From the NCBI GenBank assembly GCA_021234155.1, contig JAJEKV010000094.1, positions 1-64,000 on the forward strand: a stretch of DNA of 64,000 nucleotides, in the 5' to 3' direction. The position numbers were made by a program, and so were the translations under genes. Positions within the stretch are counted from its first letter, which is position 1; every line of letters starts with the position of its first letter. The notes beneath the pieces are model-generated. The model had not been told where the DNA came from. It saw only the letters and a program-made list of their open reading frames with translations, and did no database searches. Positions 28,561 through 56,648 of the stretch are shown piece after piece. This stretch comes from Isoetes taiwanensis. Lineage: Eukaryota > Streptophyta > Lycopodiopsida > Isoetales > Isoetaceae.

Positions 28561-28689
28561 AAAATCGTTACCCCTCGAGAAAAATAGAACATGACCTAGC
28601 AAACAATGAAGTAAAGCTTTCTAATCCTAGCCATTGCACAACATTGATGTCTATTGCCTAAAACACAATATTCACACCATACACAATGG

Positions 28690-29500: not shown

Positions 29501-29749
29501 CAGAAACAGAGAGAACCAACAGAAACATAGAGAAACAGAGAACCAAGCAAAGAAGGTTGTGTAGGTTTTAAAAATATGAGATAAAAGTACAAAAATACAA
29601 GAAAACATGGAGCAAAGCCTTCAGAAAACCGGCGTCCCAAACCGGACGATTAGTGCCATATCCGTAAACTGCCGATTCTCTCGGATTTCAATAATGCGGG
29701 GGCTCCAACAATCAATCCACCGATTCCGAGTCACGATTTGGGAAACCGA

Positions 29750-31377: not shown

Positions 31378-31391
31378 TTCTCCCCTCCTTA
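31378..31391 (-). other. Polypurine tract of chromovirus 1
   Basis: On the minus strand TAAGGAGGGGAGAA directly precedes the TGTGACG start of the 3' LTR, the usual place for the plus-strand primer of reverse transcription. Chromovirus 2 has the equivalent AGGGGGGGAGAA. Confidence 0.85.
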
Positions 31392-32040: not shown

Positions 32041-32049
32041 ATGGTGCGA

Positions 32050-34953: not shown

Positions 34954-35460
34954 CGACTCAATGGAAGCAAGGCTGATAACGCAGAGGAGCTTTTGCTGCG
35001 TATAGCTTTATCTAACGTCCGGATGGACATAGACCGCATGATAGGGTTGAATGGTTCACCTTTTATAGTTACGCGGGCTCCATTAGCTGCGTTGAAGGTA
35101 ACTTCTCTCTTCTCGCAGTCTATGTTGGCTTTTGCAGATGCCAAGAATTCCATACCAACAATGAGGTCGTATTTGCCAATATCCATTAACCTAAGCACCC
35201 ATAGCAAGAATTGCACCGGCAACCGCATCTTAAGATTGATCGGCGACCACGGTATGTCTAACCTTCACACATGTTGGGCTAAAGTGACAGGCTCCCGATC
35301 GCGGACCTTTGGGGTGTCCGGTTGTAGGGACCTGGGCCATTCTAGGAGAAGCAAAATTATGTGTACTCCCCGGTATCCATAAGAATTCACGAAAGGCTAC
35401 TTGTCTACTTGGCCTATGGTGGAAATAACCCATTAAAGCCAGGCTGACTTTCAGCATTGC
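34947..35460 (-). pseudogene. Chromovirus 1 aspartic protease region
   Basis: The frame 35457-35230 contains PGSTHNFASPRMA, the counterpart of the DTGSSHNFASPRLA active site of chromovirus 2; the catalytic Asp-Thr-Gly is altered here. The frame 35228-34947 continues with MDIGKYDLIVGMEFL and ANIDCEKREVTF, the conserved C-terminal flap and linker before the reverse transcriptase. The protease cleaves the polyprotein; this copy is probably dead. Confidence 0.85.
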
Positions 35461-37310
35461 CGGTTTCTATAGCTGCAAGGATATGAGATGCACCATGAAT
35501 GTACTCGGGAGCGTCCTCATCAGCAGGTAGTGTTGACTCAAGATCGTCCCAACCGAGGTCGGCCATGGCCAGTTTGTAGGGTCACATGCGTGGCGTAGGG
35601 GGCAGTGCATGTAATGCGGGGTGAGTATATATAGTACCGACAATTTCAGGAGGCATAATGACTCGTCATGGAAGGGAATTATTCAAATTTATATTGGCAT
35701 TATGTATTGAATTGATACAATAGACAGTAATCATAAAGGATACACATCACGAGTGATAACCATGGCTTAAGACATTGCCAATGAAAATTTTACAGCTATT
35801 TCAAATACAAAATACATAATACAATTGTTTAGGAGCTAGGTCCCTCGTCTTCGATCCATCCATGAGGGAGGTGGGCTGGTAGCGCATCAAAGTGGGCTAG
35901 GGCTAGCTGCTTGAGAGGGCTGGCTCGAGCTGCTGCCTCTGGGGTAGGTAACAAGTAGCCAAAGGTGCCGCCACAAGGGGAGGCATGTTAAGCCACCGCC
36001 CGTCCCCAATGCTACTATAGCCAAATCTCTAGGACCAAAGTAATGGTGGTGGCGTGATAGTCAATCTTCTTATGGCCCGCTGAAGTGGATATGGCTCGGG
36101 AGGCCCACCAAGAAGCTTCAAAAAGACCCTAGGTTCTTGGAAAAATAGCACCTCTCCTGGCCCGGAAAGCGAGAGAAAAGAATCAGGGCCACATGGTTCC
36201 CCATTGCCCTAACTTGAGGGTCGGTGGAGGTCTCAAGCTTCTTTTCCAAGTTGATGGGAAGCTTCTCCCTCTTCTTCTTCTTCCTGTCATCCTTTGAGGC
36301 TGACCTTGGTGTCCCAAAGGTCTTCCTCGTCCCGATCCACCTCTCCCATGGTGATTTACAAAGGCGGATCCGAGAGAGAAGGCCGATGTCCGGGCCATAA
36401 AAATGCTCTTATGGAGGCTGTGGTGTGTCACTCAGTAAGAACTGGCGAAGTGACAAAAGAGTCTCAACGGGCTCTTGCTCTTCGGGCTGATATGCCAATA
36501 GGTTCTCTACTGGTGCGGGTTGCATAACCGGTGTGGTGAAGTCGATGAAGTCATCTTGGCAATACTCATAAGGTCATAGAGAATCTCTATCTTCTTCGCG
36601 GATCAAGAAGAACGCGGTAGGCCCACATGATATCCTCAAAAATCAGGTACTCTTGGTTATTCAAGAGTACGGTAGGAAGAAGGTTTAACCCTTCGAGCTT
36701 GAGGGCTTTCTGTCGGCTGGCAGGGGCTTCTGTGGCAAGTTCCTTCCACCTTACAAAATCCCGCTCGTCGACGACTTCGTCATCTTCCGGGTCAGGAGGT
36801 AGAGGCGTAGAAGAATGCTCAGCAGGATCTCCTTATCCTCTATGTACTGGTCCATGATAATGGCCAGTGCAAATCGGGCCTCGAAACAAATTTTCCGATC
36901 TATTGTAACAATAGGAAGGTCGGTCCCTCGCCGTCACGATGCCTTTGATGACATTGGGCATGCTCATCACCCCTAACATCCGGTGCGGTGTGGAAGTCAA
37001 GATAGAGCTGCTCATCGTCTTCATTGTAAAGCATCGGGTACAATCTCCTCACAATAAACTGAAGAAAAGCGGCATAATCTGCTGGCCCCGCATGTTGGAG
37101 ATAAGATCTACACCGCTAGAGCGGTAGGGTGAAGAAGATCAAAGGGAACCGCGGGGGTCCCAATGCTCTCGGCCCAAATACCACCGGCTGCGGGGGTTGG
37201 GCGAGCCATGAGGAGTGAAGGCCAAAGGAGGGAGGCGGGAGGCGCTAAAAGCAAGGAAAAAGAATGAAACCCTAACGGCTCAAAAAGGGTTTTATACTTT
37301 TTGGGCACGT
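35461..37310 (-). pseudogene. Chromovirus 1 gag-like ORF, degraded
   Basis: A second ORF appears to start with ATG at about 37207 (MARPTPAAGGIWAESIGTPA) and can be followed in pieces: LYPMLYNEDDEQLYLDF near 37040, then DEVVDERDFVRWKELATEAP and NLLPTVLLNNQEYLIFEDIM near 36780-36620. It lies between the H3-like ORF and the protease, where gag belongs. I see no clear zinc knuckle and no standard gag motif, unlike chromovirus 2. Frame breaks are frequent. Confidence 0.5.
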
Positions 37311-37490
37311 TTTTCCAAAGTTATTATTATTAATTATTATTTAATTAATAATATATTTATTTTCATTATTATTTTTTTCGAAAGGAAAAAAAAGAAAGTC
37401 ATTTTTTTTTTATATTCATAACCCCAAAAACGGGACTAGTACATGGATAAGTTACAAAAATTTTTACAAGGGAAAAAGACGGTCGCCTAA
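37311..37490. other. AT-rich spacer between the H3-like ORF and gag of chromovirus 1
   Basis: A strongly AT-rich stretch with T-runs and TTATTA repeats separates the H3 ORF stop (37493) from the next ORF. A comparable AT-rich gap (46705-46850) follows the H3 ORF of chromovirus 2, so the two-ORF layout is shared. Confidence 0.6.
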
Positions 37491-37800
37491 TCATCTAAAA
37501 TCCCCTCGGATCCGTCGTGCCAGGTGAAGGTCCTTGGGCATAATAGTGACCCTCTTTGCGTGTATGGCGCAAAGGTTGGCGTCGCTCAAAAGTTCAATAA
37601 GATAAGCCTCGGCGACCTCACTGTAAGGCGAGGACCGCCAAAAGCTTGAAACCTTAGGTCGGTTTTTGAAGTCCCAGGCGATCTCCCCGTACAAGCGGTT
37701 GGAAGGGAAGCCCGCTGGATCAATGGCTCATGAAGTCTTCGATACTTACGATCTCGAAGAGCTACCGTCTTGGTCGAAAACCTATGGGCTTAGCGGCTTG
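37491..37800 (-). CDS. Histone H3-like domain in chromovirus 1
   Basis: Histone H3 is a nucleosome core protein; here an H3 fold is encoded inside a retrotransposon. The frame 37694-37491 reads EIAWDFK, then [38 protein letters not shown] and DFR-stop. These match the H3 alpha-1 start, alpha-2, loop 2 and alpha-3, with the stop three residues after RIRG as in genuine H3 (which ends RIRG plus three residues). Just upstream, in shifted frames (37800-37695), [26 protein letters not shown] and SLP are seen, matching the H3 RPGTVALREIRKYQ and alphaN segment. The residue before LARRIRG is His, where canonical H3 has Gln; chromovirus 2 has the same change. Two or three indels separate the pieces. 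A captured H3 cDNA fused to element sequence is the likely origin. Confidence 0.92.
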
Positions 37801-38850
37801 AGGGTCGGCCTTTAAGCGACGGAATGGATTTCCGCTTTGTTGAAGGATGCTTTGTCCATTTGGGCGATGTGCTCCCGATCCTCGAGCCCGATGTCTTCTT
37901 GGCAATTGTTGCATCCTGCTGCAGTCGGGTCTTATAGTGCACCCCACTCTTCACGGGTTTGGTTTTCTTTCTCTTCAATGTTCGGTTACCCCGCTCCCAC
38001 TGCTGCCTCTGTGTGGGGTTTCCCCGTGGGTCTGCCGATTGGTTCACGTCGCCAGGCATGTCCGGGTTTTCCTGGGGGTTAACGTTCTGGGCCGCACCTA
38101 GGTCCTGCTGGTCAACATCAAGGTTCTGCTGCTGATCCACCTGCTGGTGATCTTGTTGATCCCCCTGCTGATTCTCGCTCTGCTGGCTATGAAGGTCCTC
38201 CCCTTCCTTTTGGAGCCGCTCTCGCTCTTAGATATCCTCGGCCTCTTTATCCAGGGCGCATTTGTTCGCGGGCAATCTCGATATGGTATCGGTCCAGTGC
38301 GTGCCGCATGTCTTCTTGGATGGATTCCAGGTGGCGTTGGCTAAACCTTGGCGGAACATTTTAAAAAATGAAGCTGTTAAGGCCTTCATTCCAAGAAAAG
38401 GTAGGAAGATTAAAGTATTCTTGGTATGTGAGTATACAACCCTTTCCCAAGTAATAGAAGCGGTCCATCCTTATGTCTGGTGGAGCACTGGCTATCTGCT
38501 GCAAGTCTTCCACTCTCGCAAGATGCATGATCCTCTGGGCTTCATTCCGAATAAGCTCGGCAGGGTCGTCATCTGGTCCTGGTGAGGGGTAAAACTTAAC
38601 CACAGCCCATGCACGGTCCGGCTGCTCCACGAGAGTGTAGGCCTGATCGGCTTCATTCAACTTGATAAGAAAGCGCTCGTTGAAATGGAAGATAGGGTAG
38701 GGGACTCTTCGGCCCTCGACAAAGTGCTTGACGAAAAGACCAAGAATGGTATCTATCATAGGGTCTTCGTCGGCAAGATGCTCGACTAGCTGACAAATAG
38801 TCGGAATACGCCAACTTCTTCAAGTCCACGGTTAGCTTTGAAGCTTGAGC
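37801..38850 (-). pseudogene. N-terminal part of the chromovirus 1 H3-like ORF, novel domain
   Basis: In transcription order, from about 38850: MPLKLQS, then (one frame change) LVEHLADEDPMIDTILGLFV, VPYPIFHFNERFLIKLNEAD, AYTLVEQPDRAWAVVKFYPS, EAQRIMHLARVEDLQQIASA and a well-formed globular-looking domain to 38361. Then follows a Gln/Asn/Pro-rich linker (38140-38020, MDQQQNLDVDQQDLG) and a Lys/Arg-rich stretch (KRKKTKPVKSG), leading into the H3 fold. I recognise no known family in the first 150 residues. The frame breaks at 38361 and about 37790. Its place after the primer-binding site suggests it is the first ORF of the element. Confidence 0.6.
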
Positions 38851-39544
38851 GGCATGATTATACTAGCAAAGAACAGCAAGGGAGGAGGAAGGTGAGGCGC
38901 TCATGCAAGGATGGACGGCACTAAAGAGTAAGTAAGGGCGCTGAGGTGTAGGGCAGATGCAAGGGAGGCGTGGAGGTCAGCTATGGCGAGTTTGGAGCTT
39001 AAGTCGGCTATGGCTTTAAAGGGTGCTCGAGAGAAAGCCTGCACGCCCAAAAATATGGTTCAAAATTCAAATTTTAACTTTTAACTTTTTATTAAAATTT
39101 TCAAAAAATATTAATTTTTTATAAAAATTTTAAACGGCGCCATATAAAAATACAAAAACCGTATAGGTATTCTGCGTTGCTTATCGGCTTTTAATTTTTC
39201 AAAAGAAACACCTCTGATGCAACAGCGCCCTTTTCATTTTTTAGTGACCTGTTGTCTTTTTTTGACCCGGGGAGGCGTGCCCCTAGGGTATTTGGGAGGT
39301 GCCCAATCCATTGGAGCCGTTTTAGCCTTCATCAGGAGCTACCTACAAAAGTTATAGCTCTTCGAAACTTGGGTCTTCCAGTTGCCCCAGACTTCTTAAG
39401 GACTTATAGTCTATTACATTAACCTAGCACCAAACCAAACATCAAAGACTTAAACAATCACTCTTGCTTAAACCCTCTCTCCTAACTACCGAACTAGCGA
39501 GTTAGGGTTTAGTCGGTGCTATGATTTCAGTACTTAGAAATCAC
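38851..39544. other. Leader region of chromovirus 1 between primer-binding site and first ORF
   Basis: About 690 bases with no coding signal. It is AT-rich near 39.05-39.15 kb. On the element strand it runs from the tRNA primer site toward the first ORF, so it should include the packaging leader. Confidence 0.5.
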
Positions 39545-39558
39545 GGCTCTGACTACCA
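39545..39558 (-). other. Primer-binding site, initiator tRNA-Met type
   Basis: On the minus strand TGGTAGTCAGAGCC lies two bases after the end of the 5' LTR. It matches the plant initiator tRNA-Met 3' end complement (TGGTATCAGAGC) apart from an inserted base, the usual primer of Ty3/gypsy elements. It fixes the direction of the element. Confidence 0.85.
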
Positions 39559-39560
39559 GC

Positions 39561-41199
39561 TGTGATGCTCCACGAACATATCGACCCTCGGTAGGTATAC
39601 ATCACGGGGACTTTCCTCCCATGGCAACCAACTTGCCATAGCGTGGCCATCTGTCTAACTCGGGCCGTCTATAATAAGGCGCTCAAGTGAAGGAACCGAG
39701 GGGTCATTCGCCCACGCCTTCAATGAAGCCTACGATGGAAGTGAGCGTGAATACAAGGGTTAGCACACGGCATAAATCACATATAAATAACCACCAATGA
39801 AGGGTGGCACATCCATCCAAATACCAGCGGCAAAGAATATGCATCTAAACCTAGGAAAACACCCCAAACCCGGGTTCTACCCCGATTCGGACTCGTGAGG
39901 ATAGGCCCGATCTTCGGCCTCAAGAGATCAATGCATGCAGGTATAACCACGGCGTTGGTCGGCATAGAACATCGGCTAGGGTTGTCCACTCCATCCGCCC
40001 CTCGCGTACTAATCGTCGCGGATGGGTCGAATCACGCCTATGGCTTCTCGCTATAGCCTTAGGAGATGCGAGGCTTTGAGGCATCACCTGCCGAGCCTAC
40101 TCCGGGGGTTCATGAAGCCCGTCCGATGAGGCGTGTCGTGGAAGCGTCCCCTTCGAATCCTGATGGTTCCATGGGTGAGCTAGAATACGTCTCGCATCAG
40201 CGACCCAGCATCCATGATCCCGACTTACTCACCCTAAATCTACTCAAAGTACCCCGGGATGCCCTATGCGGGTCACACCTCTGTACCCAGGAAGTGTCAG
40301 ACCCATACCCGGCCCGGCTCGCGCCTAGCTCGCTGGCCGGCTATTAGGCCTAGCCCAATCGTAGGAGTCTCGGGGAGCCTTTTATGTTAGTGCAAGACCC
40401 CACCCCACTTCACTGCTGTGTTCCTTTGGGGTGCTAAGCGGAGTCCATAGCATCTATGACCCGGTGGGCTCTTGTGCACAGGCCGCAACTAATGGGATAG
40501 TACAGGGCCTTATCTAGGAGCATACTACAATAAATGGGCTCAGAGGTCTCTACCCTCCCGTGAATTCCCCATTTCCAAGAGCAATACTATGCAAAAAACT
40601 AACAATCCCTTTGAGAGCAAACCCAAAATCAGAATATAAAGAGAACGAACTTACCTTTACAATCAAGGGTTAGTTCCTACGAGTAAAAACACAGACAACC
40701 AACCCAACATGTGTCCAACAGGGGCGCTATCCTAGAATTCACAACTACACTAGCCACCCACCTGTGTTTCTGCTGGACCCGTTATCATTGGGGATTTCCA
40801 TCTTCTCGGTCTTGGTGTTCAGCTCTGGTCACAAGGGTGGCGTCCAACTGCTCAAGGTGGCGCTCAGCTCTGGTCACAAGGGTGGCGCTCCACTGCTCAA
40901 GGTGAATTGTGGCTGATATGGGGGTGGTGATCCACCTTATTGGTCTCAATTAGTATCACCATGTTAGCCAATCGACGTTGGCCACGTGGCGCCTTCCCAA
41001 ACCATAATTGACTTAATTACCCCTTTTAAATATTAGTTCCCTAATTATAGGTTATTATCCTTAATAATTAAATTAGCATAGCTAATTTAATCCCTTTTAT
41101 GTCAACCCCCTAGGTTACCATACCCATGGTGGCGTATCTATACTGGGTGACGTGTCAATATATTTATACGTATACCGTATAAATACTTGGAACGTCACA
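39561..41199 (-). repeat. Chromovirus 1, 5' LTR
   Basis: It starts TGTGACGTTCCAAG at 41199 (element strand) and ends CATCACA at 39561. It is the partner of 29750-31377. The terminal TGTGACG is shared with the LTR of chromovirus 2, and both have a GTATAC-rich palindromic stretch just inside the start. The 45-bp tandem duplication lies at 40818-40902. The LTR pair differs mainly by clustered small indels. Confidence 0.93.
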
Positions 41200-41279
41200 G
41201 ATTCTTCAACCCTGGCTGCCCAAACCACTAGCTATGAAATCGCAACTGAATCTGTTCACCCAATCTCATCGCACCCAAT

Positions 41280-41810
41280 TTGATCTCACCGTGCCTCTTC
41301 TGTTGGAGCTTCTATGCACTGCAAAGTAATGACAATGGCTGTGCGCCCAACGACGCTGCATCAAGCCGTAGGCCTCCAACAAATGCTCAGCCACAGCATT
41401 CATCGGTCCAGCAGAAGACATGTAATCCAGCGCTGCTGCTCTCAGGAGGCGTCCCCTCCTCATCTAGACAACTGTGCATGCCCTGCATGCCCTGCCCTGA
41501 TCTAACACTCCTAGCAATTCTCTTCAACATAGAAACACTGTGGAACATACCTATGTTGGCCTCCACACATCCTTGGCTACTCGACATGGTGCTTAGACAG
41601 AATAACAAACATGCAAGAAGTCAAGATGCCAGTCTCTTTCGGCCCAGCAGCATCGCCAGGCGTCACCAAATCCTCCCACTCTGGAGCTGGTCTTCCTGGC
41701 ATCGCCCATTCCATGCCATCAGTTTAGGCACATCTTCTTGCTATTTCCGGCCCCTCTCATCCCGACGTCCAGGTTCGTCCAGAACCCAATCGCACGGCCA
41801 ACAAAATTAA
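41280..41810 (+). other. 176-codon open frame conserved in length in both duplication arms
   Basis: The same frame is open here and, inverted, at 62053-62583, with identical length. The roughly ten differences between the two predicted proteins are nearly all replacements, and the opposite strand is also largely open. This argues against selection on this protein. Cys/Ser-rich composition; no family recognised. Confidence 0.3.
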
Positions 41811-42669
41811 CACCAGAAAAAATTTCCCCCCGCCCGACCACTAGTTTCATTGGGAAACCTACTGGGATCATCATTGATACCCCATGACAAAAAGGGGCAT
41901 AAGATGACGTGGTACGATGCTATTTAGAGTAAAAACCACAAATTTTGTCAATGGTGAAATTTAACAAAAGGAAAACTACTAAAATAGGCATGATATAATC
42001 GTATATTGATCAAGGGCGGAGATGAGCGGCTGAGATTGTGATCCAAGGCTAGCGATCCTATTGGTTCTAAGTGGGACCAAGATTTCATCTGATGTGTTTG
42101 TTTTCAGCCCTTCTATCTCCCCGCCGATCCCTCCCCTCTCGCTGCTTCTGATGATCTCCGCTTCTCCTCTTCTGATGATCATCGGAACCCATCATTCTAG
42201 TTTTGTTCATTGCTCTGTTCATCGGAATCGGAAGCGGCATGCATCGTTTGTTACTTTTTTTTACATTTTAAGTTTTTACTTGTTTACTAGATCATCTTCG
42301 ATGATCTCCGCTTCGATGATCTTCGATGATCTAAAAACTCGATCTGCGGTTGCAAAGTGCGGGGAGTTCTTTGGTTGCTCATCTTCGGGGCCGGGCCAAA
42401 AAGCGAGGATCTGTTCTTGCCCTCGATTTCGTCTGTTGGATTCATTACCATAAGCAAGGCTTTACCACAGTTCCTCCACAAAAAAGGCTCCATGCAAATC
42501 GTTTTCCGGGAACACAAGGGGCGAGGTTAGTCAAATAATAAAGAGATTTTTGATTCCCGGGGCTTTTATGTTTCTGGTGAAGGAATTATAGACACAAAGA
42601 CATGAATTTATTTGCTTCATCTTGTCTCTACAAAAAAGGTACAAGAATGGATTTGTTTTCCATGATCCA

Positions 42670-44560: not shown

Positions 44561-45632
44561 CAAAACTAAGGGCTTGTTCTTCCGATATGATCAAACCAAA
44601 TGAAATGCAATTGTACAAAGGTACATAAAGGAAAGAAGCTTGGAACAATGAAATATGAATAAATATCTTGTTTCTTGATCTGAAAATTTTGGATTCATTG
44701 GCACTAAAAATTCTGGATTCATTTGCACCGTTACTCACCTTTAGAAAGAAATAAATTATCTTGCAAGAAAGGAATTACCCGAAAGCTTTCTGGATGAGAG
44801 ATTGTAGCACAGTAAAGGCGATGATTTTTTTTGACAGAATATCCCTTCGGTAAAATCTTATATTAAACATCTGCAAGGAATACAGATATCAAAATTTGCA
44901 GCTATCAACTTGCAATCACTCAGCTACCATAGTGCCGAAACAATCAAATTTAGATCATCTATTCTGCAAAGTGCAGATTCTGAATTGATAGAATGCCTAT
45001 ATGCTCCTTATGGCTAGTAAGTGTGCATAAGCCATGTCACCCCTAACCAACTAACAGTATTCAGAACATTCCAAAATGGGTCTCTGCTCTTACTTTTAAA
45101 ACAATGTCAAAACCAGAGAATAAACTCTTACAACTTGTGAGCTTATTATTTGTTCTCAAACTTTCTTACCTCGCTAAACACGAAACTAGAATAGCTCCCA
45201 TTTGGTGTTGTTAAAAATTTGTCTGCAAATAAAGAAAAAATAAAGTTTTACAATTGAGAAGAACAGAAAAATAGGCCTACAATTTCGTTACTTTTGCCAT
45301 GCATAACTAACAAAGGAACAAAAGCTTGAAACTTCTTCTCCGTTATCCAACCTGGTGATGCAATTCTTATCTTCATGGAACATGGAATAGAATTCAGAGA
45401 TGAACTTACAACATATTTGATACTGTGAAAAATTAAATTTAGGGAGGGATATTAATGAAAGGGGGCTCAATAAATTCCACCATAATGAAAAAGGAATATT
45501 CCTCCACGATTCCCCACAAACTACCTTTTTAAACTCAGATTAAGAAAAAGAACCCTAAAAAGCCTCTTAAGTTCCTTTTTCTTAGTAGGCAGTTCTATAG
45601 CCAATCAACGTCCGTTTTCTGAGATAAAAAAC

Positions 45633-46704
45633 ATGGCCAGAACCAAATCCACTGCCAGAGTTTGTGGCCCTTACGCTGAACAAATTCACTTAGCCGCTCG
45701 AGCAGCAGCTGCCCGCCCACCCCCTCGAGAAGAGGAAGTAGTTGAAGAAGAGGAGAACTTAAACAAGTGAGGGAAGAAGAGGAAGAATCAAGTGAAGAAC
45801 GGGGAGGTCGGAAGAAGAGCGGGCTAAGAAGAAGGATCCACTAGACCCACAACGTGGGAAGTACCGGCCAAAAAGGTATGAGACCCATAAGCAAGAAAGG
45901 CAAAGGAAAAAGTGTCGAATGGGCCTCGAGAAAGGAGGGAAAGAAAGAAAGGAAAGGGAGAAGGAGTTGAGAAGGCAAGAGAGGAGGACGAAGAGGAGGC
46001 AGGATAGGCCTAGGGGGACAATTAATATCGAAGAACCCCCTAGGGATGAAGAACCAACAGAAGAACAAGAGGAGGACGCTGAAGAAGAACAGGAGGAAGA
46101 CCCGGTAATTGAGAGATCAGGAGATGAAGCCGAACCCTCCAACCCCAATGCCCCTCCACCATATCCAATGTGGCCCAGGGCAGAGAAGAGCAAAAAGAAA
46201 CAAAAGCCGGGCGAAAGGGCATTCAAGTTGAGTCATGACGCCCAATTTGAAAGAAAGAAGGCGGCATATAAAATTTACTTTCGCCGATGGTACCTATACA
46301 ATGAATGGTATTGTAAACAGAATTTTCCAAGGACGGTAAAGGGGGGTAGACCCAAGAAAAATCAGCCGAAACCACCCCCACCATACCCCAGAGAACCCAA
46401 GAGGAAGCAACATGGCCCTAACTTCGGCCTCAGGTGTGTTTAGGGGAAATCGGCACTTTCAACATTGCACAAATCTTCTTATCATAAGGCACCCTTGACG
46501 GTTGCTAAGGGGAGGTGTTACTGAGGAATTCAAGGCAGTTATCGAAGTTCGCCTTTGATGGTTCGTGCCTTGCAGGAAGCTTCTGAGGCAGAGCTAGTAC
46601 AATTATTTGAAGAAGGTAACCTCCGTGCCATTCATGCCAAGAGGGTTACAGTAATGCCTAAAGATATTCACTTGGCAAGAAGAATTAGAGGGGCAAAGTT
46701 TTAG
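45633..46704 (+). pseudogene. Histone H3-like ORF of chromovirus 2
   Basis: The frame starts MARTKSTARVCGPYAEQIHL then AARAAAARPPP. This echoes the H3 N-tail (MARTK-x-TAR, then QLA-x-KAAR-x-S-A-P) with Lys4 and Arg8 kept but the Lys9 position changed. It continues as an acidic run (EEEVVEEEE), a Lys/Arg/Glu-rich segment (45919-46130), a proline-rich part and a Trp/Tyr-rich stretch (FRRWYLYNEWYCKQNF, about 46275-46325). The H3 core then follows in shifting frames: [40 protein letters not shown] (46417-46550), then [45 protein letters not shown]-stop (46565-46704). It therefore has an H3-like tail, an inserted middle region and an H3 fold, with the stop shortly after RIRG. At least four indels or stops interrupt it. 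Confidence 0.9.
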
Positions 46705-46850
46705 AGGGTATAAAAATTGCCTAAATTTTTTTGTAAAATTTGACTCCAGGGTGTTAAAGGGAAATTATAATGATGTTTAATGCTTATTAAAAATTATAAT
46801 ATTATTTTGGAAAAGTCAACCCGAGGAAAAAAAAAAGTCCACTCGGGTCA
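46705..46850. other. AT-rich spacer between the H3-like ORF and gag of chromovirus 2
   Basis: AT-rich and mostly non-coding. Its position matches the spacer at 37311-37490 of chromovirus 1. Confidence 0.5.
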
Positions 46851-47560
46851 CACCCAAGAATTTGGCAACTCCTATGGAATGAAGGATAAGGACATAGGAA
46901 AGGTAGCAACAGCAAATTTGAATGGTCCAGCCAGAATATGGTGGAAGGGATATGCAAAATCTAATAGACTGAAAAGAAACAATTGTAAGTTCAAAACTTT
47001 CAGTAAAGCATTTCGCAAGCACTATGTACCTCGATCACATACAAGCAGGCAGATTCAACAATTTTATAGGTTGGATCAAGGAAACTTAACCGTAGCCAAA
47101 TATACGGAAGAGTTCATGAGGCTACGATTAAATGTGCCAACAATAACAGAAAGGCAAGCCGTAGATGGTTACATTGAAGGACTAAACCCCAACATCAAAA
47201 GACTTGTGCGGGCCATAAACCCAAAAGGTTGGTTGGGAAGTTGAGGATAAAGCCTTAAGTTTGGAAGAAACTCCACAAACACTGGGCCAAAAGCAGGCAA
47301 CTATTCAAAGGACAAGTCAATAGCTCCATACACTCCAAGGCAGCAGGGAAATCAACCTGCTAACCAACAGTTTCAAGGGAAGAATGAAAGGAAAGGACCA
47401 TACAGAAATCAGGCAGCTCAAGGGTCTTCATCTGGCAGGTCAATCAAAAGCTTCCTAGACAGTATTCCAAAAGAAAAGAGGGATGAATGCATCAAGAAAC
47501 AACTCTGTTTCAGATGTTTCCAACCGGGCCACAGAACACATACATGTCCTTTCGTCATGC
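46780..47560 (+). pseudogene. Chromovirus 2 Gag with zinc knuckle
   Basis: 46780-47244 contains the retrotransposon gag core: NLNGPARIWWKGYAKSNRL, FKTFSKAFRKHYVPRSHT, IQQFYRLDQGNLTVAKYTEE and FMRLRLNVPTITERQAVDGY. After a frame change near 47242 it continues with a Gln/Asn-rich stretch and then the zinc knuckle LCFRCFQPGHRTHTC (about 47504-47548, C-x2-C-x4-H-x4-C). Gag forms the particle shell and binds element RNA. The start of the domain is not clear, because the frame begins inside an AT-rich stretch; a gag N-terminus may be missing. Confidence 0.88.
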
Positions 47561-48504
47561 AGGCAGCCTTAGCAGAGCTAGATGGATGGGAATCACCTAC
47601 TGAACAAGATGAAGATGATGATGATGAGGAAGCCCAAGATTACATAGATGGTGAGTGTAAGATTTGTGCAGCTATTGAGACTGATAATGTTGCAAGTCAG
47701 TCCACGGTCATCTCAGCTGATGCTATAATAGATGATAAACCGTATGTAATTCTAATAGACACGGGTAGTTCACACAATTTTGCATCTCCTAGACTGGCAG
47801 CATTATTGAAGTCAAAGACCATGAAATCTAAACCCAGACCAGTCAGCATGGCAAATGGGGCAATTCGACATACAAAGGGAAGAAGAGTTAATTTCGACGT
47901 CGGATTGACCGGAATTAAGTTCACCATGGGAGCTGAGGTAATGGATATTGGCAAATATGACTTGATAGTTGGAATGGAATTCCTCAAACCAGCTAAGGCA
48001 ATCATTGACTGCGACAATAAAGAGATAGCAATCACAGCACCAGATGGCAAACGAATAGTGGTCAGAGGTAAGGAAATTCCTTCAGTAATGCAGTGTATAA
48101 CTTTAAGCCAGTTGAATAAATGCAATTTAAAGAAGGAGATCGAATATATCCTTAGGCTAGAAGCAATTCAACCTGATAGTGAGAAAATAACACAGGAAGA
48201 AAGCATAGAAAAATTGCCTAAGCCTATTGCTAAAATCATAAGAGAATTCTATGATGTTTTTCCGGATGATATCCGAGAGCTACCACCCTATAGAGGTGTG
48301 GAATGTGAGGTTACTCTAGCCCCAGATGCTAAGCCTACTAGCAAGGCTCCTTACAGGATGAGCACACCGGAACTGGGAGAGCTCAAGAAACAGTTGAAGG
48401 AGTTGTTGGAAATTGGTTTTATAAGACCAAGTGTATCACCCTTTGGGGCACCTATTCTCTTCGTGAAGAAGAAAGATGGAAGTCTAAGAATGTGTATAGA
48501 TTAA
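47557..48504 (+). pseudogene. Chromovirus 2 protease and first half of reverse transcriptase
   Basis: The frame is open for 315 codons from 47557. It reads an Asp/Glu-rich linker, then the aspartic protease active site VILIDTGSSHNFASPRLAAL (about 47750-47805) with Asp-Thr-Gly intact, then MDIGKYDLIVGMEFLKPAKA. The RT start follows, with [60 protein letters not shown] and [13 protein letters not shown], where one frame change causes the stop at 48502. The frame is a direct continuation of gag and would be made as a Gag-Pol polyprotein. Confidence 0.93.
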
Positions 48505-49040
48505 ATGACTAAATAAACAAACGGTAAAGAATAAATACGCATTACCAAGGGCAGATGATCTAATGGATCAACTTCAAGGGGCAAAGATATTCTCCAAAAT
48601 AGACTTAAGGTCAGGGTACCACCAAATAAGAATAAAAGAAGAAGATGTTCATAAAACAGCTTTCAGAACACGCTATGGACATTGTGAATTTACAGTTATG
48701 CCATTTGGCCTATCAAATGCACCAGCAACGTTCATGAGGTTGATGAATGATATTTTTAGAGAGTTCTTGGATGATTTTGTAATAGTGTTCTTCGACGACA
48801 TCCTCATTTATAGTAAGTCAATCGAAGAGCATGATCACCACCTGAGAAAAGCATTACAGAAGCTAAGAAGGCATAAGCTATTTGCCAAATTTTCCAAGTG
48901 TCACTTTGCCACCCCCAAAGTTGATTACTTGGGGCATATTGTATCGCGAGAAGGCATTACCTTGAGATCCAGCAAAAATAGAAGCCATCATAGATTGGCC
49001 AGCACCAAGAAACATCCCTGAAGTAAGAAGTTTCCTGGGT
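48505..49040 (+). pseudogene. Chromovirus 2 reverse transcriptase, second half
   Basis: It resumes at [20 protein letters not shown] (about 48510-48565) and continues [17 protein letters not shown]-like sequence, [20 protein letters not shown], then [14 protein letters not shown] with the FFDD catalytic box (about 48780-48820) and [21 protein letters not shown] frame change near 48960 leads into the connection domain ([20 protein letters not shown], about 49008-49070). Catalytic residues are intact. Confidence 0.94.
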
Positions 49041-49593
49041 CTTGCAGGATACTACAGAAAATTTGTAAAGGACTTTGCTAAGTGGGCAACTCCTTTGACA
49101 GACTTCACAAAGAAACAGAAGGTAAAGAACTGGATGGACAATTGGATACAAGAAGTACAAGTTTCTTTTGATAAGCTCAAAAGAAGCCTTGACAACAGCT
49201 CAGTTCTAACCTTACGACCCGAAAAAGATAAACTTGTAGCTAAGCCCGATGCAAGCATGATTGCCAAAGTGGGGTACTTTATGCGGGGAAGGAAAGGTAG
49301 TTGCATATGATTCAAAAAAAAGATGAATGAAGCGAGAACAACGATATCCAGGCTCATGATCAAGAACTATTGGCGTAGTGAGAGCACTACGCATTTGGAG
49401 ACATTACTTGTTAGGAAAGAAGTTCCAATTAGACCTGAGATCATCGAGTTTGCAATACATATTCACACAACCACTTGTAAATTTGAGACAAAGAAGGTGG
49501 ATGGAGTTTTTAGAAGAATATGACTTTGATATAGTCTATAAGCGAGGCAAATTGAATGTAGTTGCTGATGCTCTCTCTAAAGTAGACCAATAG
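49041..49593 (+). pseudogene. Chromovirus 2 RNase H
   Basis: The thumb/connection ([20 protein letters not shown]) is followed by [16 protein letters not shown], corresponding to the first catalytic Asp region of Ty3-type RNase H. Then come IWRHYLLGKKFQLDL and EFLEEYDFDIVYKRGKLNVV, and ADALSKVDQ (49378-49593). Several frame changes occur between 49060 and 49380. The domain degrades the RNA strand after first-strand synthesis. Confidence 0.87.
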
Positions 49594-49672
49594 TCACAAG
49601 AACACCTTGCAATGCCATATCAACTTTGTCAAGTGAATTCGGCAGAAAATTGAGGAGGCAATACCCTCTAGT

Positions 49673-51163
49673 GTGGAGTTCCAACAGGTTTGGGCAAGCC
49701 TTTGCAAGGGCCTTAAAGGACAAACAAGGAAAGGGAACTTTAAGAATTATAAGAAGGAAGGCAAGCTTCTTTACCATAAGGACAAATTGTGTGTCCCGAA
49801 ACATGGGGGAGTGAGAAAATTGATTCTCAACGATACTCACAATAGCTTCGATTGCGAGGTCATGCGGGGCTTTATGAAAACTTACTTCAAGATAAGAAGT
49901 AGTTACTTCTGGCCAGGTATGAAGAAGGACATTGCCAATTATATTCGGCAATGCCAATTATGTCAACAAACCAAGGCCGAACAACTTCGTATTCCTGGAG
50001 CCCTAGAACCATTAGCAGTTCCAGATGCCAAATGGGAAATAGTGAGTATGGATTTCATCACGGGCCTTCCAAGAACAGCAAGGGGGCATGACGCGCTCAT
50101 GGTAGTGGTCGATAAACTTTCAAAGATGGCACATTTCTTGCCATGTAGAACAACAGACACTGCCCTAGATACAGCCTTGCTCTTCACTAAAGAAATTTTT
50201 AGACTCCATGGCATGCCTAGGGGAATAATATCGGATAGAGATCCGAAATTTATAAGTGCATTTTGGAAGGACTTCTTTGGAACCATTGGCACAAAGCTTT
50301 GTATGAGTACAGCTTATCATCCTCAAACAGATGGTCAAACAGAAAGAACAAACAGAATTTTGGAAGATATGTTGAGACATTACGTGTGGAACAAACAGAC
50401 GAAATGGGAGGACTACATATACTTGGTAGAATTTGCATACAATAGTACCAAGCAAGAATCATCACAGATGTCCCCGTTCATGATTAACTATGGATACCAA
50501 TGTCTCACACCTGACACGTGGCATAATCCGGTGTCAAAAGTTGAAGTTTCTCAACAAATGCTAGAAGATATGCAAGAGCTAGTGCAAGAAGTTCGAGAAT
50601 ATTTGATAGCAGCTAGAAGCCGTCAAAAGAGCTTAGCAGATAAGCATAGAACAGTGAGAGAATTTCAAGTTGGAGATAGCGTATGGCTAAAGATCAAAGT
50701 TAAGCAAGCCAAGCTTAGAATTGGAAATTGCAAGAAATTGGCACCAAGATGGGCGGGACCATTTAAAATTATTGAGAGAGTTGGAAATCAATCCTACAGA
50801 TTAGACTTACCCGCTCATCTAAAGGTTCATAAAGTCTTCCACGTTAGTCTGCTTAAGAGGCATACTCCAAAACCGGAAGAAATTTTGGAGACTCCAACTT
50901 TATTGGAAATGACAGAGGAACATGTTGAAATTGTTCCTGAAACCATCCTTGACAAAGCACTCAAGAAAACACGAAGATCGGAATTTCTTCAGTACTTAGT
51001 CAAATGGAAGCATGTGCCAGTAGAAGACGCAACTTGGGTATTGAAACGAGATTTAGAAAGACAATACCCAGAATTTATGAACCAATTCGACGGCCAAGTC
51101 ATCTCCGAAATGGCCAACATCGAATATATAGGTCTGCCATTGTTAAAATCTGTGATAGATTAA
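49673..51163 (+). CDS. Chromovirus 2 integrase with chromodomain, open frame
   Basis: A 496-codon open frame, the longest intact retroelement frame in the window. Residues 1-100 hold the zinc-binding region (MKTYFKIRSSYFWPGMKKDI, CQLCQQTK; the second His is less clear). Residues 120-225 are the catalytic core with D127 (VSMDFITGLP), D188 (IISDRDPKF) and E224 (GQTERTNRILEDM). Residues 330-400 are the GPY/F-type C-terminal domain (KKLAPRWAGPFKIIERVG, LKVHKVFHVSLLKRH). Residues 420-470 are a chromodomain (FLQYLVKWKHVPVEDATWVL). Chromodomains of this lineage are thought to direct insertion to chromatin marked by H3 methylation. The listed start is an in-frame ATG; the polyprotein would enter from upstream. 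Catalytic residues are all present. Confidence 0.95.
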   Translation: MEFQQVWASLCKGLKGQTRKGNFKNYKKEGKLLYHKDKLCVPKHGGVRKLILNDTHNSFDCEVMRGFMKTYFKIRSSYFWPGMKKDIANYIRQCQLCQQTKAEQLRIPGALEPLAVPDAKWEIVSMDFITGLPRTARGHDALMVVVDKLSKMAHFLPCRTTDTALDTALLFTKEIFRLHGMPRGIISDRDPKFISAFWKDFFGTIGTKLCMSTAYHPQTDGQTERTNRILEDMLRHYVWNKQTKWEDYIYLVEFAYNSTKQESSQMSPFMINYGYQCLTPDTWHNPVSKVEVSQQMLEDMQELVQEVREYLIAARSRQKSLADKHRTVREFQVGDSVWLKIKVKQAKLRIGNCKKLAPRWAGPFKIIERVGNQSYRLDLPAHLKVHKVFHVSLLKRHTPKPEEILETPTLLEMTEEHVEIVPETILDKALKKTRRSEFLQYLVKWKHVPVEDATWVLKRDLERQYPEFMNQFDGQVISEMANIEYIGLPLLKSVID

Positions 51164-52039: not shown

Positions 52040-54010
52040 CTAAGGGGCTATTTCATCCCGTAGAATTTCTTTGTAAACTACATTTGGAGTGAACCTCCTT
52101 TTGTTTTTTAGCAGTGCTCCTTGTCTTGAGGTTTCTTGAATGTATACCTTCACTCCGTGTTGTGTGGTGCACCTTGAGAATGCGACATAGAGCTGGCCGT
52201 GTGCGAATACTGGAGTTGGTAGGTAGATGCCAACGGAGGTCATTGACTGTCCTTGGGACTTGTTTATGGTCATCGAGAATGCAAGTCGCACGGGGAACTG
52301 CCTTCGCTTGAAGGGGAGGAGGTCGTTATCTGATGGCTCCAGTGTTATCCTTGGTATGAGGACCCGTGTTCCTTTGTAGGTGCCAGTGATTATTTCTGCA
52401 TCTATGATTCTTGGGTGCGCTTTGATTACACGGAGGCGGGTGCCATTGCGATAGAGCCGGCGCCGGGTTCATGTTTAAAGTAGGATGATGATGGCACCGT
52501 CCTTGATGTGCAACTTATGCGGTGGCATGCCAGAAGGAGTCAGGTGGTTGATGAACTCAATTGGGAAATCCCTTGTAGCATCTTCGCCTTCTGCAATGAT
52601 GGCATCTATACTCGTGTACGTATGGAGTTGTCCATTCAACCTTAGAAGGACCTTATCGTTGATTCTCAGCGTGTCTTCATTCTTTGGAGTCAAGATGGCC
52701 TTGTCATACAGTAGGTGCACATTTGCCTCTGTTATTTCCTTGCCGAAGATGCTGTCAATCAAGTCGTCTTCTACCACGCATTCTTCGGGTATCTCGACCA
52801 GGTCGCGATCGAGTCCTGACTCATTGTTCATCCGTTCCCCATTACCGAGTCGTAGCAGCCAATTTGAGAAGATTTGCTCGTCTTTTCCGACCCGCATGTT
52901 TTGTGTCAGCTTGTGGGTTTTGAAATTAATCCACAATGGGTTTCTCTTGACACACTTCGAGATGATTTACGTTCTTGTTGCATGTTTGATCCGCGAGGCA
53001 ATTGTTGTAGGAAATCGCCGCCGGTGAGCATTATCATTCCCCAAGCGGACTGTCATCTTGGCGTATCTCGCGTAGAACCCTATGTCGGCCGGTGGTGAGT
53101 GCTTGTGTATGTGTCATCCCCATTTCGTCCCATACCATGATGCTTGCCTTTCTAAGTACCTCGCTTGTTGGCTTGTTGCCGTAGTCGCGAGGTTTACCTC
53201 TTGTGTGAGGTTGAGTGGTAACTTGAGCGTCGAATGAAGCTGTTTGTGCTCCCTTCAAGAGGAGGTGGCAATGCACTGTCAAACTCTTGACACAACACCC
53301 GCCGCATCCTCTTAGTATCTGATCGGACTATTGAAGAGGAATGTCTTGCCCGTGCCTCTGGGCCATCCACATTGATACATGGGGCTTGATCTTTGGTGAT
53401 TGCATCGAGGATAATGTCGGCTATGTGCTTACGCTCTCTGTTGAGCTTTAGTAGTTTTCTTGCCCTTCTTTCAACTCCTTTTACGCATCGAAGGTGGGTT
53501 CATTTGGGAGATTGCCTAGAATGTCCATCCGTGGTTCTGGCGGTCCAAGTTCTTTGGCATGTCGCGACCACTCATCACGAAGATGTCGTCGATGTCCTTC
53601 GGTGCGTGGTTATAAGCCTGCTCTTGTGGCATCTTCCGTTGGTAGTCTTACGTCAAAATTTGTCCTTAAAAAGAGCTCCCATAGCGCATTGGATCTTGTG
53701 GGTCATTGTATAGGCAAATGAATGCAAATGTCGGCGTGAGCTGCAGAGCATCTGGAAGAGGTTTGCGTCTTGGCGTTTTCTCCCATTCGACATCGTCTTC
53801 CGATGTAAGCCCGAGCTCTTTGGCGACTTCCTTAAAAAGTTGAACATAGTTTTCCATTGGCCGGTGCGCATGTCTTGAAAGCTTGGTAGCGCCCTTGATA
53901 TGTAGCAACGGGGAGGCGTAGGTAGTAGTGGTCCACCGATCCTTAGGGCTCACATTGTACATCCGTGTGATGAGCTTGAATTTGCCCTTTGCCTTTCGGC
54001 CGGTGGCGTG
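52040..54010 (-). pseudogene. Helitron 1 Pif1-type helicase part of RepHel, frameshifted
   Basis: The helicase unwinds the strand displaced by Rep. In transcription order: RMYNVSPKDRWTTTTYASPL and SPLLHIKGATK (about 53960-53885), LFKEVAKELGLTSEDDVEWE, the Walker A GTGKTFLFN (about 53375-53350), IMVWDEMGMTHTQALTTGRH (Walker B region, about 53140), LTQNMRVGKDEQIFSNWLLR and LGNGE (about 52910), TPSGMPPHKLHIKDGAIIIL (about 52530). The last part is [19 protein letters not shown] and [13 protein letters not shown] (52290-52160), the conserved C-terminal motifs. At least five frame changes break the gene, the first within the last 40 codons of the Rep ORF. Confidence 0.9.
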
Positions 54011-56648
54011 TGAACTTGTAGTACTGTGGGATCTCTGGATAAGTGTACTGATGCGCATTTGGGTCGTTCCTATTTAGCTCAAACCATGCTGTCAGCATTG
54101 TTTGTTTCTGCATCTCTCGTTCGATGGCTTCTCTTTCGTGGCCTTCTTGATAGTAGACGGCTTGGTTGTTAGGCAGGTGAACAGGTAGCCTATATATTGA
54201 ATGAGAGTTGCCATGCATCTTGAAGCCGAATAGCCTCCACATGGCTTCAGGTGCAGATACATATCTCGTGTCAAGGTACTGTTCGATCTCGTCCCAATTG
54301 AATGTGGATGTGGGTTCATCTGTTGGCTGTACAGTGACCTTTATAGATGCTCGATCATGCCCTTTGTGGATATACTTGTAGATGTACTTGACGCTGCCGA
54401 CACTGAAACATTGCTCGACATTGATATGTGCTTCGTACTTTTGAGTTAGCCACCGATTGTGGGGTACTATCCACCTATTGTCAATAGGCGTGTCACCCCT
54501 CATGAAGTGGCCTGTGTCTCGTCTTCTGTACTCTGGATAGCCATTTGTGTTGACTCTAGTGTGCTCATTAAATGGTTTTGGAAATCCCTTTGTGCATTCT
54601 TTTGTCGAGCTTCCTTCCTTGGCTTCCATGCAAGGAGCTTTAGGGTTCAGTGGGCCACATGGTCCATGGACCATATGCTTGATGACAATCTCTCGCAGAT
54701 CAGGGTTTTCTAGACATGGGACCTCAGCACTCGTGATGCTGTCAATGGCATCGCTATCCCGAATTTTGTCTTCTTGCTCGAGAATCATGAGGAGGTGGCA
54801 ATGTGGAAGCCCTCGCTTCTGAAATTCTATCGTGTACGTGTGCGCCTTCACCTTGCCCAAGATATCGTTATCAAAGAGATCGTGGAAGAACGCCTTGAGC
54901 TTTGTGTGATATACGCGTGCAATCAAGTCGGGCCTATCATGTGGTTGTTGTCCATGGAGCAGGTTGTGTCTGATCTCTATCCAATTTGGGTTGCAGGTAA
55001 ATGTCACAAAAAGGTCTGCTTTGCCAAATCTTCGTATCAAAGCCATTGAGTCCTGGTAGTTTTGTTGCATTGCTCTTGGGCTCCCATTGAACGAAGAAGG
55101 CAGGATGACCAGCTTGCCGGATCTTAAACCTCTTCGCTCTGCTTCATGGTCTATGTAGTCGATGAGGCCTTGATACAGCTCAACTCGTAGCTTCCTTTGG
55201 TTTTGCTTGATCCAGTTCAAATTGTTTGCCTCCACTCTCGAGTAGATGTCAACAATGAATTGTTGCGTTAGCTTGCCTGCACAAAGCAGTGGATTGCAAG
55301 TTGGGCTCCTTATTGCCAGCCGATAATTGTAGAATTGAAGCATACTTATATTTTCCTGCTTCTTTGAAGATGTTGAACCAAAAGATGTTTTTGCCTTCTT
55401 CATTCCTATTTTCCAGCCCTGTTCACCATTCGGAAAGAGAATGGGATAAACCAAGGGATCAAGATTTGGGTCCGTGATTTGGATCTTCTTGAGACCGCCA
55501 CCCTTTTGGTGTATGCAGATGTCTCTATCAAATGGCGGCTCACCATCTGGGTTTACAAATATAACTGCTACTTCGTTTGAGTATGATGGGTTGTACCTCC
55601 TATGGTCCAGGCTCCGGTCAGTGTTAAAGTACATTCTAATATCCATTACACCTTCGCCCGAACGTTGTGCTTGATCTTCTACCTCATGCATCATCATAAG
55701 AGCTGATGCATAGGGGTTGACGTTGCGCAGCTCAACATCTAGTTCTTTGAGAAGGTGGCTGTCACAATTTTCATTCTGGGGGTTCTGAACTCGTGTTTCA
55801 TGGGCGCAGTCGGCATCCAGAATATAGAGCTGGGAGTACGTTGCAGCTTGAGAATCATCAGCATACGCTGGCCCTACTCTATGATAAGTTTGCCCTTGGA
55901 TCTTGAAACAGTACGGGCCATGGCCTTCAAACTGCTCGATATGTGCACCAAAGGAAGCAAAGGCCAGTGCACTGTTGTAGGTCCTGATGTGCTGGTAGAA
56001 ATTATTGGCTTTTGGGTGTTGGCGGCTTAGTAACATCTGAATGAGGTGGGGCATTGGTTGTAGAGGCTCCAACTTGATTTGCCCATCGTGACAACAGTTT
56101 GTACCATCGTCCTTGAATGCTAATGCCCCACAATGCATGCATTCCTTGTTGAATGGCCCACAATGGTGTCGTTCGATCTGTGTGTTTTCAATAGTCCTTG
56201 CTACTCTGTATGTAGAAGGCTGGGCTCTCAATTGACGTTGATATTGTGCGAGTTCATCAAATCTTTGTTGTTGTTCCTCTTCTGTTTCTGTTGCAGCAAC
56301 GCGAGCACGCTTTTCGCGTCGATGTCTGGCAAGTTCGGCCAATCTTTGTTGATTCTCCTCTACAGTTTCTGTGGCGGCTCTTTGGCATCTTTTATCGTGT
56401 TTTTGTTGTGCATTTACTGCCAATCTTTGCAATCGGTGTTCTTCTGTTTCTATAGTATCACGTTGCAACTTTCTTCTCTTGTAATTCTCTCTTTGTTTCC
56501 CCAATCGAATTTCACGTTCTTGAGCTGTCTCTGCGGCACGCTTGTTCCTGTATCTATCTCTCGAAGCTGCAAGCCTTCTTTCTTCATCGTTCATGGCTGC
56601 AAGCCTTCTTTTTTGAATAACTATAGCTTTGTTTTTTCTATAAGTCAT
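53943..56648 (-). CDS. Helitron Rep (HUH endonuclease) part of RepHel
   Basis: A 901-codon open frame starting at ATG 56648. Residues 1-150 are a Lys/Arg/Glu/Gln-rich coiled region with repeats (RRLAASRDRYR, HRLQRLAVNAQQ, QRLAELARHRREKRA, QRFDELAQYQRQ). Residues 161-188 form a Cys/His cluster (HHCGPFNKECMHCGALAF). Residues 300-660 are the Helitron-like N domain. Residues 545-560 read LFVTFTCNPNWIEI. The HUH motif is GLPHCHLLMIL (H616, H618) and the catalytic tyrosines lie in KYIYKYIHKGHD (Y755, Y759). The protein nicks and joins DNA strands for rolling-circle transposition. The frame ends 901 residues in because of an indel, after which the helicase continues in the next frame. The Rep active-site residues are all present. 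Confidence 0.96.
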   Translation of the reverse strand: MTYRKNKAIVIQKRRLAAMNDEERRLAASRDRYRNKRAAETAQEREIRLGKQRENYKRRKLQRDTIETEEHRLQRLAVNAQQKHDKRCQRAATETVEENQQRLAELARHRREKRARVAATETEEEQQQRFDELAQYQRQLRAQPSTYRVARTIENTQIERHHCGPFNKECMHCGALAFKDDGTNCCHDGQIKLEPLQPMPHLIQMLLSRQHPKANNFYQHIRTYNSALAFASFGAHIEQFEGHGPYCFKIQGQTYHRVGPAYADDSQAATYSQLYILDADCAHETRVQNPQNENCDSHLLKELDVELRNVNPYASALMMMHEVEDQAQRSGEGVMDIRMYFNTDRSLDHRRYNPSYSNEVAVIFVNPDGEPPFDRDICIHQKGGGLKKIQITDPNLDPLVYPILFPNGEQGWKIGMKKAKTSFGSTSSKKQENISMLQFYNYRLAIRSPTCNPLLCAGKLTQQFIVDIYSRVEANNLNWIKQNQRKLRVELYQGLIDYIDHEAERRGLRSGKLVILPSSFNGSPRAMQQNYQDSMALIRRFGKADLFVTFTCNPNWIEIRHNLLHGQQPHDRPDLIARVYHTKLKAFFHDLFDNDILGKVKAHTYTIEFQKRGLPHCHLLMILEQEDKIRDSDAIDSITSAEVPCLENPDLREIVIKHMVHGPCGPLNPKAPCMEAKEGSSTKECTKGFPKPFNEHTRVNTNGYPEYRRRDTGHFMRGDTPIDNRWIVPHNRWLTQKYEAHINVEQCFSVGSVKYIYKYIHKGHDRASIKVTVQPTDEPTSTFNWDEIEQYLDTRYVSAPEAMWRLFGFKMHGNSHSIYRLPVHLPNNQAVYYQEGHEREAIEREMQKQTMLTAWFELNRNDPNAHQYTYPEIPQYYKFTRHRPKGKGQIQAHHTDVQCEP

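Follow-up and report, generated by a model that had tools for sequence, protein, structure and literature searches.

Extra open reading frames (ORFs) and captured genes are known in LTR retrotransposons (PMC7264820; PMC9289625; statements on cited works refer here and below to the accessible parts of their texts). Plant Ty3/gypsy chromoviruses encode protease, reverse transcriptase (RT), RNase H, integrase, and chromodomain in that order, and the accessible part of one account of them uses the word 'histone' once, about chromodomain binding (PMC6317226). Among orchids, Ty3/gypsy elements of Phalaenopsis have captured an AlkB RNA demethylase, a capture linked by its authors to host surveillance of transposable elements (TEs); their screen covered 121 genomes, all of angiosperms (PMC9289625).

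Compared with the plant chromoviruses (PMC6317226), the elements described here, from the lycophyte Isoetes taiwanensis, have the same domain order and an LTR followed by TGGTATCAGAGC, but carry two additional ORFs after the LTR and ahead of gag, of which the upstream one ends in a histone H3 core. Like the AlkB elements, they hold a host-type regulatory protein fixed as an extra ORF; unlike that RNA-acting enzyme of Phalaenopsis, theirs is a structural chromatin protein, present in deep lineages of a lycophyte (PMC9289625). We regard it as near certain that these Ty3/gypsy chromoviruses form a family with two lineages whose ORF1 encodes an H3 variant, hereafter retro-H3, placed between the 5' LTR and gag and followed by ORF2.

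Two decayed elements in one window

The window, a stretch of 64,000 nucleotides from contig JAJEKV010000094.1, contains at 45633-46704 (+) the decayed, frame-broken ORF1 of a lineage-B chromovirus. From 45633 on, the forward strand reads MARTKSTARVCGPY, and the MARTKSTAR start noticed in the initial annotation is indeed present: this H3 N-terminal tail (45633-45659) keeps Lys4, has Ser for Gln5, and has Lys9 replaced. It is followed by a charged stretch, rich in Glu and Lys/Arg, that fills the interval between tail and core (45660-46440, borders approximate owing to frame changes), and by the H3 histone-fold core (46441-46704, start approximate; tblastn). The C-terminal part of the core lies in a single frame at 46561-46698, where 35 of 46 residues (76%) equal those of plant H3.1 (tblastn E 8e-17), and this frame terminates at 46704 in 12 residues whose letters are not shown. 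The tail, charged region, and H3 end described in the initial annotation are present, but the ORF is not continuous in the window copy: it falls into three open stretches in differing frames, one running from MARTKSTAR to a stop after 45 codons, one of 215 codons in another frame in the charged region, and one of 59 codons at the H3 end. Residues 128-357 of an open copy match window 46015-46701 at 79%, and the DNA at 45424-46756 is 92.7% identical to the copy at locus L049. An alignment of 20 lineage-B copies, among them that of the window but not L048, has 14 with MARTKSTAR unchanged and six with a single residue different, and the alignment score of each of six B proteins against the H3 tail was equalled by 0-9 of 1000 shuffles. 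A chance or low-complexity match was ruled out by tblastn, Pfam, conservation among copies, and the shuffles.

Downstream lies the decayed gag-pol of the same element (46819-51118, +), pieced together from tblastn and Pfam matches to part of the capsid, protease, RT, RNase H, integrase, and chromodomain; at 49862-51163 Pfam identifies the integrase core rve (E 5e-8) and Chromo (E 4.3e-10). The gag starts part-way, and no ORF2 match was found beside the element. A probable 3' LTR (59343-60947, +; TGTGACG...CGTCACA), preceded by a G-rich purine stretch, shares 93% identity with that of L049, and the 64 kb yielded no match to a 5' LTR. The pol remnant and this LTR are separated by ~8 kb with a Helitron-like ORF in between. 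That ORF, of 901 residues (53943-56648, −), is helicase-like (PF14214, E 8e-62) and is probably a later insertion. The gag-pol of the window copy is 98% identical to that of locus L050 (46856-48475), and its H3 ORF region is ~92-93% identical to the neighboring L049; this difference is suggestive of gene conversion or of recombination between elements.

The minus strand of the window contains another such element, of lineage A1, presumably the first chromovirus of the initial annotation. Its full extent is 29757-41199, bounded by LTRs at 29757-31377 and 39564-41199 that are 87% identical (self-BLAST), and its decayed coding part (31992-38789; tblastn) comprises ORF1 with an H3 core (38789-37494, the H3 part at 37494-37811), ORF2 (37209-35876), and gag-pol (35575-31992, with RT at 34113-34998). 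The sequences flanking this element (28392-29750 and 41200-42669) match 61160-64000 in inverted orientation at 92-93% and are continuous there, so the element seems to have inserted into a repeat. Elsewhere in the window, an ORF at 15633-16250 (+) matches GPI2, a phosphatidylinositol N-acetylglucosaminyltransferase subunit (PF06432, E 2e-44), and is probably a host gene; another, at 22784-23326 (−), has a weak match, below the cut-off, to DUF4216, which we take to be a domain found in plant CACTA-type transposons.

Lineages A and B across the genome

The genome search covered 1,658,258,908 bases in 1110 contigs, and copy numbers are lower bounds. With the core-histone Pfam model, 8704 first-look candidates were obtained, of which the best 150 were scored and all passed the cut-off. 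The top 15 of these resemble host H3 genes (of eight fetched, seven are ordinary H3, and the core of the eighth is likewise that of an ordinary H3), and about 55 of the best 150 lie in open frames of at least 300 residues, by a hand count of the table; of the 135 rows below the top 15, a minority were inspected individually. We retrieved 10 kb around each of 20 long-frame loci (L009-L028), chosen by Pfam score rather than at random, and these define lineage A. By choice, ORF1 with H3 is present at all 20; ORF2 occurs at 19 and gag at 18, while an RT-region match was seen at 14, one of just 47 residues, and several stretches end before RT. The order is ORF1(H3)-ORF2-gag-pol in the A loci, and the same order is seen for lineage B in L049/L050. 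A host H3 pseudogene adjoining a transposon is ruled out by this recurrence, with few gaps, of the ORF ahead of ORF2 and gag at the 20 A loci and in the L049 B copy.

The lineage-A ORF1 consists of an N-domain of ~200 residues, a Q/E/K-rich linker, and a near-complete C-terminal H3 core, with a stop codon immediately after the core in 19 of 20 proteins (L019 reads on). Three types can be distinguished, A1 (13 loci), A2 (5), and A3 (2), between which the N-domain is 31-35% identical (three pairs) and the core 83-91%. Neither a Pfam match nor a relative in the protein database (0 of 1015 candidates at E 1e-3) was found for the N-domain of L009. The N-terminus of A is a non-H3-tail domain, unlike the free tail of B. 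An internal H3 tail in lineage A, suggested by alignment, was dropped, because shuffled sequences score as high 40-694 times in 1000 across the 20 A proteins, so that its likeness is not significant.

The H3-carrying elements are Ty3/gypsy chromoviruses, with RT, RNase H, integrase, and a C-terminal chromodomain in order, TG...CA LTRs, and a primer-binding site. At L021, Pfam reports RVT_1 (E 7e-39), RNase H (6e-33), Integrase_H2C2 (2e-20), and Chromo (6e-8), with rve below the cut-off. In our reading, the chromodomains seem to have no cage aromatics at the first and last sites and to be type-II-like.

ORF2, of ~440-490 residues, travels with the H3 ORF (L011, L013, L017, L020, L024, L049) and tracks its type: among five proteins compared, identity is 79-92% within types and 43-51% between them. 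The A and B versions are homologous, as indicated by blastp (E 1e-18 to 3e-11, 22-23% identity) and by hhalign (24%, probability 98.8%, against 0.1-0.2% for five shuffles). No Pfam match was obtained for the two ORF2 proteins scanned (L013 and L049), and an ORF2 profile recovered one relative from the protein database, P0121 (471 residues, 42%), on a 2,953-base ENA contig; 104 pattern matches in viral contigs included no relative. The structure predicted for P0121 alone was unusable (mean pLDDT 34.6). The full ORF1, compared with 5.8 billion proteins, gave 4586 matches, the best 120 of which are by name histones, histone repeats, or uncharacterized; the six inspected are histones or histone repeats.

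For lineage B, a DNA search of the genome with the window ORF returned 357 candidates and, after scoring of 40 of these, a list of 42 matches; among the 42 listed, at least 33 besides the window exceed 900 bases, at 74-92% identity (counted by hand). Twenty of these loci were fetched (L029-L048). Five (L029-L032 and L043) keep one open 357-residue frame from Met, so that the B ORF1 exists whole, and the other 15 are broken. The reverse complement of L049 supplies the layout: an LTR of ~1.6 kb (1783-3387, TGTGACG...CGTCACA), then TGGTATCAGAGC, which we take to be the plant initiator-Met primer site, ORF1 with H3 from 3923, and an ORF2 of 492 residues with its ATG at 5690, while gag-pol lies downstream in the neighboring stretch L050.

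Four remoter relatives were also fetched (L051-L054). In L052 an open ORF of 369 residues starts MARTKQTARK (canonical H3 1-10) and continues with a long insert and the core; in B1, 261 residues separate residue 9 from the start of the core, compared with 39 in H3. The reading 'Lys4 kept, Lys9 lost' given in the initial annotation consequently holds for the sub-family of the window but not for L052. The comparison of L049 with L052 shows silent sites at saturation (pS 0.82-0.88 in four regions and 0.53 in the remaining one of five), and yet the tail is identical at 8 of 9 residues where the next 63 codons are 35% identical and the core 85% (tail against next stretch, Fisher p 0.003). On this evidence we interpret the B tail as the original start of H3, retained while the adjoining stretch drifted. 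The tail is partly lost in L054 (MARTKQTYW) and in the broken L053 (MVRTKCTAM), and L051 has no MARTKSTAR-like start.

Selection on the H3 core and its ancestry

PF00125 matches four ORF1 proteins with E-values from 1e-29 to 3e-43 (L049: 1.1e-29), and the 60 solved-structure matches listed are all named H3, bar one 'Histone domain-containing protein'. The core spans 84 codons, the length of host H3, with no indel in any of 41 open cores (8 host, 12 A1, 5 A2, 2 A3, and 14 B; L023 and B loci without an open core were left out), and by sequence the C-terminus of ORF1 is a complete, indel-free H3 histone fold. Invariant in six TE rows are R49, R63, R69, R72, R83, K115, R116, and T118, which we take to lie on the DNA side, and C110, H113, A114, D123, L126, A127, R129, and I130, presumably on the H3-H3' side. 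T107 differs in all six rows, lineage B has changed K56, L65, F84, and Q85, and core changes are frequent at 50-65, 79-90, and 99-107; contact residues show no significant excess of conservation over other core positions (Fisher p 0.06-0.24). The motif ARKS, present twice in each host H3 protein inspected (K9 and K27), is absent from 24 of 26 ORF1 proteins and occurs once in each of the other two. Loss of the silencing sites is not universal, since both A3 proteins keep one ARKS and L052 keeps Lys9. A free H3 N-tail is present in lineage B, as MARTKSTAR or, in L052, MARTKQTARK.

Pooled core omega (dN/dS) is 0.043 in A1, 0.017 in A2, and 0.073 in B, compared with 0.014 in host H3. Estimated within region limits, with a bootstrap over columns of 18 of the 20 A loci, core omega is 0.044 (0.025-0.069) in A1, 0.023 in A2, and 0.009 in A3 (one pair), values biased low by the choice of loci by Pfam score, which favors conserved cores. 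Both the N-domain (0.10-0.14) and the linker (0.13-0.20) lie above the core in lineage A; within A1 these regions have omegas of 0.132 and 0.199, and RT has 0.063 (0.046-0.083), a range that overlaps that of the A1 core. The B copies, chosen by DNA likeness to a broken copy, are a fairer sample than A, and 20 of them (broken copies counted, L048 not) give omegas of 0.14 for the core, 0.19 for the insert, 0.41 for residues 10-75, and 0.69 for the nine-residue tail, this last value resting on very few changes. The dN/dS test proposed in the initial annotation thus yielded values far from 1 in the H3 core, at 0.009-0.044 for A (biased low) and 0.14 for B.

The distribution of variants among B copies agrees with this picture. 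Core variants shared between copies number 27 silent to 6 replacement, against 29 to 47 for singletons (Fisher p 2.6e-5); the same contrast holds in the insert (residues 76-243; 49 to 30 and 52 to 91, Fisher p 2.6e-4) and when only open cores are counted (25 to 1 and 15 to 19). In the B1 tail, changes are too few to prove constraint (shared, 0 silent and 1 replacement; single, 3 and 4). Because replacements make up few of the shared variants and many of the singletons, the ORF1 protein appears to be needed for propagation and to decay after insertion. Omega and the shared/singleton split together support the long retention and function that had been proposed for the element H3, and we assign a probability of about 0.97 to ORF1 being a selected, element-encoded H3. 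The contrary reading, in which the H3 stretch is a captured host fragment, functionless and simply copied along, could appeal to the broken frames of the window copy and 15 of the 20 fetched B loci, but omega is far below 1 in every group, replacements are scarce in just those variants that copies share, and H3 has been kept in two lineages whose ORF2 proteins are just 22-24% identical; we consider it very improbable.

In a phylogeny of the H3 core, the A sequences form one clade (99/98) and B1 and B2 together another (100/100), so the grouping of individual element H3s with host H3 genes, which the initial annotation had named as evidence against its proposal, is not seen. The A H3s fall beside plant H3.3 with weak support (61/69). 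A tree that unites all transposon H3s in one clade is worse by 1.5 log units, a cost at which it is not rejected (p-AU 0.20), and when host H3 is the sole outgroup a branch with support 87/75 separates all TE H3s from it. Given the long branch of B, the core tree fits one capture or two; the homology of A and B ORF2 suggests that the slot before ORF2 is shared by descent, which favors one capture, and in our judgement a single capture is likely. Capture of CENH3, whose hallmark is a lengthened loop 1 in a CENH3-type core, is unsupported: the core has host H3 length and A lies beside H3.3, in a tree built without a CENH3 reference.

Whether the H3 tree follows the RT tree was a question posed in the initial annotation, and within lineage A the answer is no. 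The RT tree (16 rows) is poorly resolved, with one starred branch (100/99) that unites A1, A2, and the window A copy, and RT rejects the A1 clade (p-AU 1e-47) and the A2 clade (2e-5). Median silent divergence in RT (pS) is 0.47 between A1 and A2, 0.34 between A1 and A3, and 0.43 within A1, and silent divergence of the core between A types is near saturation (0.78-0.82). Since RT is discordant with ORF1 and ORF2 is concordant with it, old ORF1-ORF2 cassettes seem to have been exchanged on a common pol.

Possible roles of retro-H3 and comparison with known systems

The reading we tentatively place foremost, at somewhat less than an even chance, is that the element encodes an H3 whose nucleosomes resist silencing. 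Retro-H3 would be made during the element's cycle, pair with host H4, and be built into nucleosomes of newly made element copies or in their vicinity; these nucleosomes would resist heterochromatin formation, and the element would stay transcribable. The proposal is prompted by the absence of ARKS (H3K9, H3K27) from most ORF1 proteins together with the retention of the core and of the free ARTK tail of B. The N-domain of A, the charged insert of B, and ORF2 might steer or deliver retro-H3. Methylation of H3K9 and H3K27 marks transposons in bryophytes and angiosperms, in an account whose accessible part does not cover lycophytes (PMC10952607). Lineage-B nucleosomes may be weak or absent, as suggested by the changes at F84, Q85, L65, and K56 and by the difference at T107 in all TE rows.

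Other roles would make different use of the same protein. Retro-H3 could mark the landing site for integration or tether the pre-integration complex to nucleosomes, and in a variant of this idea the type-II-like integrase chromodomain might read retro-H3 or its tail. Histone and chromodomain do reside on one element, and the chromodomain, in our reading, appears to be without cage aromatics; type II chromodomains lack the cage residues and have no identified partner in the accessible part of their description (PMC6317226). The mixing of ORF1/ORF2 types with RT within lineage A implies, however, that tight co-evolution of retro-H3 and pol is not required, and we hold targeting, the chief rival, to be rather unlikely. 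It also enters, as one component, into a broader composite that we find doubtful to a like degree: an element H3 on its own chromatin, unmarkable by host silencing, would double as a landing platform for the chromodomain, with ORF2 as loader and the cassette types exchanged like a changeable coat.

If retro-H3 and host H4 instead condensed the DNA copy of the element or sat in its particle, the invariance of the DNA-contact arginines in the rows compared would be expected, and some giant viruses do organize their genomes with histones (PMC12297534). Yet only H3 was found, so the remaining histones would have to be supplied by the host, the H3 is in a separate ORF outside Gag, and the free ARTK tail of B is unnecessary for packing; packaging is, in our view, improbable. 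We think still less of a poison histone that would spread through host chromatin at large and upset silencing or gene expression in the cell. The long N-terminal extension or insert of retro-H3 recalls bracovirus H4, which is incorporated into host nucleosomes and acts via its extended tail (PMC9145170), but broad damage is of little benefit to an element that is passed on with its host, and many copies persist in the genome.

Should retro-H3 enter chromatin, a genomic parasite would be altering the basic packaging unit of its host. In that case, whether a transposon can block its own silencing at the nucleosome would become directly testable, and the natural, selected H3 variants (A1, A2, A3, B1, and B2) would separate the regions of H3 that must be kept from those that tolerate change. 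Retro-H3 may also be relevant to the question of what type II chromodomains bind and to the origin of so large a number of such elements in this genome.

VANC, encoded by VANDAL transposons, is to our knowledge not a histone. It provides a transposon-encoded anti-silencing protein, a role that for retro-H3 is just proposed, and it differs from retro-H3 in being sequence-specific (PMC10398659; PMC5735166). The single viral histones, bracovirus H4 and some viral H3s, are likewise parasite-encoded lone core histones close to those of the host and thought to enter nucleosomes, but they come from viruses or polydnaviriforms rather than retroelements; the nearest layout is that of nudivirus ORF1, whose 1111 residues are H4-H3-like over the last 200 (PMC9145170). 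H3-tail-like motifs also occur in the parasite proteins NS1 of influenza and ORF8 of SARS-CoV-2, which copy a short motif, whereas here a single protein combines the tail and the core of H3 (PMC10208167). The word 'histone' is absent from the accessible main text of PMC7264820 and from those of two Isoetes genome papers (including PMC8566536), and a retroelement-encoded histone was not found in the open-access literature as represented by titles and the beginnings of abstracts. The retro-H3 element is, within that literature, a chromovirus with a captured ORF that stands at the far end of its class, and its histone cargo is new.
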